64,000 bases of DNA from Jeotgalicoccus saudimassiliensis (lineage in GTDB: Bacteria > Bacillota > Bacilli > Staphylococcales > Salinicoccaceae), in NCBI RefSeq assembly GCF_000756715.1, contig NZ_CCSE01000001.1, positions 186,001 through 250,000 of the forward strand, read 5' to 3'. The notes under the pieces are model-generated. The model ran no database searches and was not told where the DNA came from. It was given only the letters and a program-made list of their open reading frames with translations. A program made the position numbers and the translations under genes. Below are positions 17,235-28,001 of this stretch, piece after piece; within the stretch, counting starts at the first letter, position 1, and each line of letters begins with the position of its first letter.

Positions 17235-17261
17235 GGTGTTTTGTTGGGATGAGGTGGTGCC

Positions 17262-17745
17262 GGATGACAACGGTGCTCTCCCGTTGTGAACCGAGGAGCG
17301 TTGGATGACAACAGCGATTCCCCGTTGTGAACCGGTGAGTGCGGGATGACAACGGTGCTCTCCCGTTGTGAACCGAGGAGCGTTGGATGACAACGGCGTT
17401 CTCCCGTTGTGAATCGGTGAGTGTTGGATGACAACGGCAATCCCCCGTTGTGAACCGAGGAGTACCGGATGACAACAGCGTTCCCCCGTTGTGAACCGAG
17501 GAGCGTTGGATGACAACAGCGATTCCCCGTTGTGAACCGAGGGGTCCCGGATGACAACAGCGTTCTCCCGTTGTGAACCGAGGGGTCCCGGATGACAACA
17601 GCGTTCCCCCGTTGTGAACCGAGGAGTACCGGATGACAACAGCGCTCCCCCGTTGTGAACCGAGGAGTACCGGATGACAACAGCGCTCCCCCGTTGTGAA
17701 CCGAGCCGTCCCGGATGACAACTGCAATTCCCCGTTGTGAACCGA
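17262..17745. repeat. Array of twelve 41-bp hairpin repeat units
   Basis: GGATGACAAC recurs at 17262, 17303, 17344, 17385, 17426, 17467, 17508, 17549, 17590, 17631, 17672 and 17713: an exact 41-bp period, twelve units, the last ending near 17745. Each unit is GGATGACAAC, a variable 7-8 base core, CCGTTGTGAACC, then a 6-9 base linker (GAGGAGTACC-like). ACAAC(GG) and (CC)GTTGT form an inverted repeat, so each unit can fold as a hairpin or bind a dimeric protein. Some neighbours are identical (17631 and 17672), pointing to duplication of single units. The array fills the gap between convergent whiA and the minus-strand SDR gene. Open frames across it on the minus strand come from the repeat, not from genes. 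Confidence 0.93.
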
Positions 17746-24811: not shown

Positions 24812-26116
<1,305 letters not shown>

Positions 26117-26132
26117 TATTATTACAGTGAAA

Positions 26133-26156
26133 ACCCCTCTTTGAGAGGGGTTTTTG
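26133..26156 (+). terminator. Terminator after eno
   Basis: ACCCCTC, loop, GAGGGGT (26145-26151), then T-run. It ends the glycolytic operon directly before the second hairpin array. Confidence 0.93.
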
Positions 26157-26184
26157 TTGTTTGTTTCGGGGTGATGTGGGGGAG

Positions 26185-26832
26185 GTGATAAGTGGCGTGG
26201 AATTCGTGGACATATCACTTAAAAGGGGTGAAACGGTGATAAGTGCTGAGAAAACTCTCGACTTATCACCAAAAGAGGGTGAAACGGTGATAAATGCTGA
26301 GAAAACTCTCGACTTATCACCAAAAGTGGATGAATCGGTGATAAGTGCTGAGAAAATTCTCGACATATCACCAAAAAGCGATGAAATGGTGATAAGTGCT
26401 GAGAAACTTCCCGACTTATCACCAAAAGAGGATGAAACGGTGATAAGCGCTGTGAAAATTCTCGACATATCACCAAAAAGCGATGAAATGGTGATAAGTG
26501 CTGAGAAAACTCTCGACTTATCACCAAAAGTGGATGAAATGGTGATAAGTGCTGAGAAACTTCCTGACATATCACCAAAAGAGGATGAAACGGTGATAAG
26601 TGCTGAGAAACTTCCCGACATATCACCAAAAAGCGATAAAACGGTGATAAGTCTTGTGAAACCACCCGACATATCACCAAAAAGCGATAAAACGGTGATA
26701 AGTCTTGTGAAACCACCCGACATATCACCAAAAGGCACTAAAACGGTGATAAGTCTTGTGAAACCACCCGACATATCACCAAAAGGCACTAAAACGGTGA
26801 TAAGTCCCGAGGAAAATCGCAACTTATCACCG
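26185..26832. repeat. Array of thirteen 51-bp hairpin repeat units
   Basis: GTGATAAGT-type starts recur at 26185, 26236, 26287, 26338, 26389, 26440, 26491, 26542, 26593, 26644, 26695, 26746 and 26797, an exact 51-bp period; the first unit is degenerate. Each unit is GGTGATAAGT, a core near 16 bases (GCTGAGAAAACTCTCG-like), ACTTATCACC or ACATATCACC, then a ~15 base linker such as AAAAGAGGATGAAAC. The 10-base ends are inverted repeats, perfect or with one mismatch. The last four units share a different core (CTTGTGAAACCACCCG-like), showing local spread of variants. Because 51 is a multiple of 3, long frames run through the array on both strands; I judge these not to be genes. It separates convergent eno and the NERD gene. 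Confidence 0.94.
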
Positions 26833-27772: not shown

Positions 27773-28001
27773 GGCACTAACATAATCGACAGGTAAATTA
27801 TCTCCAAATGACAGTAATTTAAAAACTGCGCAAAAAATGAACAGTTCTCAGCAGCCGGACCTCCGCCACTCCCGGACCCCTGCCACCCCCATACCAATAC
27901 GCCAATATAACAACTACATTACAAAACAACGCTATACATTGCACATACAGTAAATTTTTGGTACTATTTATACTGTTAATATAAATCGGAGGGGTATCTT
28001 C
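27773..28001. other. Divergent intergenic region with a C-rich (minus-strand G-rich) tract
   Basis: The 229-bp gap between the NERD gene and secG must hold both promoters. A TATACT (27969-27974) is a possible secG -10. At about 27855-27892 the plus strand carries clustered C-runs (CCGGACC, CTCCCGGACCCC, CCACCCCC), so the minus strand has G-runs of 5, 4 and 3, unlike the AT-rich surroundings. No open frame of substance is seen. Confidence 0.5.

Follow-up and report, generated by a model that had tools for sequence, protein, structure and literature searches.

Among the described systems that come closest to the locus presented here, one is formed by RAYT, REP and REPIN, that is, by REP-associated tyrosine transposases together with their palindromes (PMC2817692, PMC3116915). 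The STAR elements, or VNTRs, of Staphylococcus aureus are intergenic and consist of direct repeats of the motif T(G/A/T)TGTTG(G/T)GGCCC(C/A) (PMC3532100). Bacterial satellites are described as intergenic tandem repeats, with dispersed families in Leptospira (PMC6749651), and in a CRISPR-mining study the legend to Fig. 6 names a NERD protein as one of the putative auxiliary genes of CRISPR (PMC10910872). Before the work on SmdA, the function of the NERD domain had not been studied experimentally, to the knowledge of the authors of that work (PMC9040797). In the open-access literature searched, no paper was found that joins "NERD domain" and "tandem repeat", although an earlier description elsewhere is possible.

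Here, we describe a tandem palindrome array located between eno and a convergent NERD-domain gene in Jeotgalicoccus saudimassiliensis. In our reading, which we hold to be probable, this array is the DNA target of the adjacent NERD protein, and the pair exemplifies a Staphylococcales-wide system, for which we infer both binding and maintenance of the repeats by the protein.

Structure of the array downstream of eno

The host genome consists of one 2.19-Mb chromosome, of which a stretch of 64,000 nucleotides (hereafter, the window) was analysed. The features of interest are listed in Table 1.

Table 1. Features of the window that are discussed in the text.
Feature	Coordinates	Strand	Remarks
51-bp tandem palindrome array, 13 units (GGTGATAAGT-N16-ACWTATCACC + 15-bp linker)	26184..26831	.	
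eno	24818..26116	+	constant left-hand neighbour of the 51-bp array, both within the genus and in g3; outside the element and shown for context
eno intrinsic terminator	26124..26160	+	terminator-like on the minus strand too (26148-26134)
eno-linked NERD-domain gene, 300 aa; PD-(D/E)XK-like fold, Cys4 zinc ribbon, predicted C-terminal helix-turn-helix	26870..27772	-	3' end faces the array
Second window array, period 41, dyad ACAACGG-N7-CCGTTGT type	17257..17745	.	between convergent genes

Each unit of the array is made up of a 36-bp dyad followed by its linker. The thirteen units at an exact 51-bp step that had been predicted from the sequence were recovered, with the first dyad starting at 26184 and the last ending at 26831, and TRF gave a period of 51 with 12.2 copies. 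The original prediction had put the array in the right place, bounded by the eno terminator and the 3' end of the convergent NERD gene (stop codon 26870), although its coordinates were one base too high. Dyads of this type were absent (0) from 20 shuffled windows. Identity between units was about 97% in the left arm, about 93% in the right arm, 69% in the core and 70% in the linker.

Two details of the predicted architecture had to be revised. The right arms, which were thought to alternate, are a mixture of ACTTATCACC and ACATATCACC in no strict alternation, with ACATATCACT in one unit; and the late core CTTGTGAAACCACCCG, which had been attributed to the last four units, is common to only three consecutive ones (26643, 26694, 26745), the 13th unit having a core of its own, as expected of an end unit. 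Cores and linkers vary in blocks and recur within the array, unlike unique spacers. These blocks of identical cores support the duplication of units within the locus that had been suggested.

When folded, the units form stems of about -17 kcal/mol. Covariation or complementarity beyond chance was absent between the core halves, unlike in a long RNA stem, and we therefore rejected such a stem. A known RNA element was also rejected, because the Rfam search found no family in the array and returned only a tRNA and a sub-threshold match over the eno terminator. Translation as a repeat protein, the counter-hypothesis named in the original prediction, proved unsupported, since, in the long ORFs of either strand, it is the third codon position that varies least, and the sister class of arrays has a period of 41, which is no multiple of 3. 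Finally, a DNA-uptake-like motif was rejected, as GGTGATAAGT, with 28+37 occurrences in the chromosome, is mostly confined to arrays.

Other repeats were seen in the window. A 17-bp C-rich direct repeat is present in two copies at 27855-27890, upstream of the NERD gene and before secG, and long in-frame tandem repeats with periods of 27-90 (multiples of 3) occupy positions 125-998, which apparently encode an Ala/Glu-rich repeat protein.

Turnover of arm sequences at fixed geometry

Dyads of the eno-array type were found at three further loci of the host genome. In a scan of 84,980 species, the fixed 36-bp dyad was confined to Jeotgalicoccus (J. coquinae, J. marinus, J. meleagridis and J. psychrophilus); we rejected the idea that the exact dyad has further hosts, as the matches outside the genus were isolated and of other lengths. 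Within the order, 148 genomes from other genera gave no match to the exact dyad. In the relatives, dyads are present at many loci, either singly or as 51-bp arrays. Among related sites, the core was 16 bp long in 142 of the 145 dyads and the step was 51 bp in 103 out of 105 cases. Over 21 loci, the arms carried about 2 bits per position and the core mostly 0.2-0.6.

A 51-bp array was present downstream of eno in all Jeotgalicoccus genomes (9/9), with arms that differ between species: GGTGATAAGT, GAGCAAGGT, GAGACAG, GTCTAT and CATTAGT were all observed at this position. Genus g3 also has 51-bp arrays downstream of eno, with yet other arms. The arms are swapped between species at the same locus, with the core of 16 and the step of 51 retained, and the copy number of the array at one locus differs between species. 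Selection on geometry, as originally proposed, is strongly supported by this pattern, in which species differ entirely in sequence at a given locus and yet retain period and core length.

Arms of the GAGCAAGGT type were found at several loci in each of the genomes G002, G004, G007 and G008, with cores that are specific to each locus. Because gene conversion between loci would be expected to homogenise the cores too, a trans-acting reader of the arms would be the simpler explanation. As judged from the sequences, arms that are alike across loci and cores that are locus-specific speak for such a reader rather than for gene conversion. A comparison of array similarity was left out of the evidence, since it is confounded at the eno loci by shared eno sequence.

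Moreover, some genomes exhibited more than one arm type. J. meleagridis has 50 copies with GTCTAT arms, often alongside GGTGATAAGT units at the same locus; at six loci (L035, L036, L037, L039, L040 and L041), GTCTAT units stand next to GGTGATAAGT units in what looks like arm replacement in progress. In J. psychrophilus (G008), arm types are mixed across loci, which gives the impression of an older family in decay.

Association of NERD genes with arrays

Every NERD gene of the host genome was followed by a 3' array (10/10), of period 51 for the eno-linked gene and of period 41-42 for the other nine. At these nine genes, the array begins 7-47 bp past the stop codon, and its repeat sequence is individual to each gene. 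An array was observed at 14 of the 301 non-NERD genes of at least 200 aa in this genome, versus 10/10 NERD genes (Fisher 1e-12). Among 12 unselected arrays without a NERD gene, taken from 464 kb, 11 matched the array of exactly one NERD gene, so that every NERD gene seems to stand at the head of a single repeat family. The arrangement is thus that of a single-copy enzyme gene next to the palindromes of its own family, further copies of which are dispersed. A 41-bp array with CATGA..TCATG (L146 17434-17638, in the host genome G000 at about 1.477 Mb) fell outside the ten NERD-adjacent families and is possibly the orphan of a lost NERD gene.

The NERD subfamily was identified in 32 of the 52 other genomes of the order, corresponding to 10/13 genera, and in 0/16 genomes of genus g14. 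A survey of 117 NERD loci from 11 genera revealed a measurable 3' array at 90 of them, usually starting less than 60 bp past the stop codon; the remaining 27 loci exhibited degenerate palindromes in some cases and none in others. Non-NERD genes across the survey had an array in 28 out of 932 cases. In the Staphylococcales, arrays were measured in 10 of the 11 NERD-bearing genera sampled, the eleventh, g4, having the degenerate form only. A significant dyad (p <= 0.05) was detected in 16 of the 39 array units, and the set as a whole was far from chance. No relatives of the NERD protein were found on plasmids.

The array lies on the 3' side of the NERD gene in nearly all cases, and on both sides in some. 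At L233, L235, L241 and L246, for example, arrays of the same period were seen on both sides, as if the gene were inside the array. Since the NERD gene, and not eno, is the constant neighbour of such arrays, the earlier focus on read-through from eno looks misplaced.

The 41-bp class and the position of arrays in the genome

In 400 kb of the host chromosome, all other regular short-period intergenic arrays had a period of 41, mostly with the dyad ACAACGG-N7-CCGTTGT. This dyad is present in 160 exact copies in the genome, with a core of 7 in all those listed (5-11 allowed); genome-wide array counts rest on pattern searches and on samples of 160-464 kb. The second array of the window is of this type and finds its match in the arrays that flank a NERD gene located at 905 kb on this chromosome.

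In 464 kb, arrays were observed in 12 of the 71 convergent gaps, in 1 of the 263 codirectional gaps and in none of the 70 divergent gaps (Fisher 4e-9), these counts being approximate because the gene finder, a simple one, overlooks a number of genes (even the NERD gene of the window has a negative codon score). In the window, as well as at L135 and L137, the sequence of a given strand is G/T-rich before the arrays and C/A-rich after them, the base skew switching at the array between convergent genes.

Array periods are quantised and follow the NERD clade

The periods of the 90 measurable NERD arrays were 41 (47 loci), 42 (4), 50 (3), 51 (20), 52 (6), 61 (7), 62 (2) and 63 (1). They form three classes, 41-42 (51 loci), 50-52 (29) and 61-63 (10), with nothing between the modes, the values being non-independent inasmuch as related NERDs share them. 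TRF assigned a period of 83 to three loci, which are dimers of 41/42-type units. When mapped on a tree of 56 NERD proteins, the period class requires 3 changes (minimum 2), compared with a mean of 12.6 after shuffling, where 0/200 replicates were as low. Within one genome, the eno NERD clade is associated with a period of 51 and the other clade with a period of 41; the period therefore follows the protein rather than the host. The steps of about 10.2 bp suggest that the units may lie on one face of B-DNA. Intergenic arrays of period 81, again 10n+1, were also noticed in G002 (L184 1081-1379; L204 4965-5172).

NERD protein and its putative recognition helix

The NERD protein of the window matched the Pfam NERD profile (PF08378) with an E-value of 8.8e-10 and 39.5 bits (cut-off, 22.1), and all 18 aligned NERD members match the same profile. 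In the alignment of these 18 proteins, D83, E96, Q125 and four Cys were invariant, and K98 was present in all but one, which exhibits a K-to-E change. The AlphaFold2 model (pLDDT 86; C-terminal part alone, 93) comprises a nuclease-like domain at the N-terminus, a Cys4 zinc ribbon and, at the C-terminus, three helices, which are read as a putative helix-turn-helix. The model of the nuclease domain showed moderate similarity to PD-(D/E)XK enzymes (Can2, Z 9.1; VC1899, 8.9; McrC, 8.3). The C-terminal domain had weak zinc-ribbon-like matches only in the PDB, with no HTH family, and a sequence search for a solved NERD relative returned only weak zinc-ribbon-type matches.

At the eno loci, the putative recognition helix and the arm go together. 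The helices SKAVVNKY, SRAVINKY and SKATLHKY (S[KR]A..[NH]KY) pair with GGTGATAAGT arms in G000, G005 and G006, the array of G006 having GGTGATAAGT arms in part and GTCTAT arms mostly. The eno NERDs of G002, G003, G004 and G007 exhibit a putative recognition helix of the form SSS..R[RK]Y: SSSTVRRY and SSSTIRRY pair with GAGCAAGGT arms in G004, G007 and G002, and SSSCVRKY pairs with GAGACAG arms in G003. The eno-linked NERD gene of J. psychrophilus (G008) carries a frameshift close to the C-terminus (L079 1300-1560), and its second frame reads SSSTVRKY. Overall, the G000 protein is nearer to those of G003 and G004 (70-74% identity) than to those of G005 and G006 (57%), so that helix and arm covary against overall similarity. 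This covariation of the C-terminal recognition helix with the arm, seen in eight species and representing perhaps two evolutionary changes, is suggestive.

Discussion

The mechanism that we propose starts from the predicted architecture of the NERD protein. With its nuclease fold, zinc ribbon and C-terminal helix-turn-helix, it would bind cognate half-sites as double-stranded DNA; each unit would hold one NERD assembly, and successive assemblies would stack along a single face of the helix. With about 10.2 bp per turn, such stacking would explain periods of 41, 51 and 61 bp as 4, 5 and 6 turns. Units might then be duplicated through nicks or cuts made within the dyad and, more rarely, dispersed to tolerant sites; NERD and arms would coevolve like RAYT and REP, and the host would tolerate arrays behind the terminators of convergent genes. 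We consider it evenly balanced whether these loci are previously undescribed repeat-maintaining elements, whose NERD nucleases would recognise their own arrays by a one-helical-turn ruler, switch arm specificity between species via the C-terminal helix, and amplify or disperse the arrays.

Some of the same observations could be accommodated if the repeats acted as RNA, in a toxin-antitoxin or defence module in which the NERD nuclease would be checked by a repeat RNA transcribed just after it, much as a type III nuclease binds its repeat RNA, and the protein would set the repeat length. The array starts a few bases past the NERD stop codon with no terminator between, and NERD-adjacent arrays are probably co-transcribed with NERD. 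In the window, the only minus-strand terminator-like site beyond the array is the eno terminator, and transcription from NERD is accordingly predicted to cross the array and continue to this point. The dependence of the period on the NERD clade would also fit such a module, as would the precedent of ToxIN, which uses an RNA repeat array (PMC8860590). However, the toxin gene of a ToxIN-type system is preceded by its array, from which a terminator separates it (PMC8860590), whereas the NERD array is located downstream; the dispersed arrays, which number in the dozens, are found past terminators in convergent gaps; and steps of about 10 bp between periods are indicative of B-DNA. NERD domains do occur inside defence proteins (weak PADLOC matches), but no curated defence family reached the cut-off. 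Overall, we regard an RNA module as unlikely. An element serving the host seems improbable to us as well. NERD-bound arrays might serve, at the ends of transcription units, as topological insulators, sinks for supercoils or roadblocks, comparable to the roles proposed for REP/BIME, and both the preference for convergent gaps and the retention of the array at the eno locus in all nine Jeotgalicoccus genomes would be consistent with a benefit of this kind. Nevertheless, convergent gaps behind terminators are also those least harmed by insertion, copy number and arm type change fast, and most convergent gaps are without arrays.

Explanations that dispense with an active NERD protein fare worse. 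Very little credence can be given to a neutral minisatellite, in which hairpin-prone DNA would slip during replication and be tolerated between genes, with the period inherited and the NERD link due to hitch-hiking. Blocks of identical units, degenerate end units and a copy number that varies between species at one locus are what it would produce, but it leaves unexplained the three quantised period classes seen in many genera with unrelated sequences, the arms conserved across loci with free cores, and the NERD linkage with its one-to-one matching of families. Hardly credible at all is a role of RNA hairpins in terminating the transcripts of eno and its neighbour or stabilising their 3' ends, which is close to the view taken in the original prediction: the units fold as stems (about -17 kcal/mol, as above) and arrays are found at the 3' ends of genes, but eno's own strong terminator precedes the array, no U-tract is conserved between species, the core halves do not pair, and most gene 3' ends have no array.

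If recognition of the array by the NERD protein is correct, the NERD domain would gain its first molecular target. In any case, a definite DNA candidate, specific in sequence, can be named as the partner of a NERD subfamily in ten genera, and the quantised periods suggest a physical ruler. The pairing may also explain array-rich convergent gaps that could be mistaken for minisatellites, VNTRs or CRISPR-like arrays.

Comparison with known systems

The arrays share features with several described types of repeats. Bacterial satellites are also intergenic and tandem; neither a nuclease partner nor a quantised period is mentioned in the portion of the source considered here (PMC6749651). The STAR elements resemble the present arrays by a motif conserved across loci, locus-specific intervening sequence, a copy number that changes by local duplication, and an unknown function. 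They differ in that no STAR neighbourhood is common to species, whereas that of the eno array is, and in that a NERD partner belongs to the arrays described here and not to STAR; moreover, the STAR motif TNTGTTGNGGCCC had no exact match in 341 loci.

Like CRISPR and CRISPR-like interspaced arrays, the NERD arrays are regular and adjoin nuclease genes. In contrast to these, they are without unique spacers, the cores being duplicated with the unit. The NERD protein listed as a putative auxiliary in the figure legend of the CRISPR-mining study (PMC10910872) could mark the same kind of locus. Type III toxin-antitoxin systems such as ToxIN also combine one nuclease gene with one adjacent tandem array of characteristic unit length; in the present case, the arrays are downstream, the units are palindromic DNA, many arrays are orphans, and the nuclease family is unrelated.

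In organisation, the arrays resemble RAYT and REP, in which a nuclease-type gene is also flanked by its own palindromes, with several pairs per genome, an extragenic location, dispersed copies of the same family elsewhere, and coevolution of protein and repeat. REPIN/RAYT was nonetheless rejected as the cause of the arrays, as no Y1 transposase is present in the host genome: a search for PF01797 (Y1_Tnp) found it absent from G000 and from 7 other Jeotgalicoccus genomes, and present only in G005, as partial copies mostly located at contig ends. RAYT is a Y1 HUH transposase, whereas the enzyme here is NERD/PD-(D/E)XK-like and unrelated. A RAYT gene has REPs on both sides in inverted orientation, in contrast to the NERD arrays, which are direct and tandem, with quantised periods of 41, 51 or 61 bp, and are usually found on the 3' side only. 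The comparison points to a second route to extragenic palindrome families, which would be independent of RAYT transposases.
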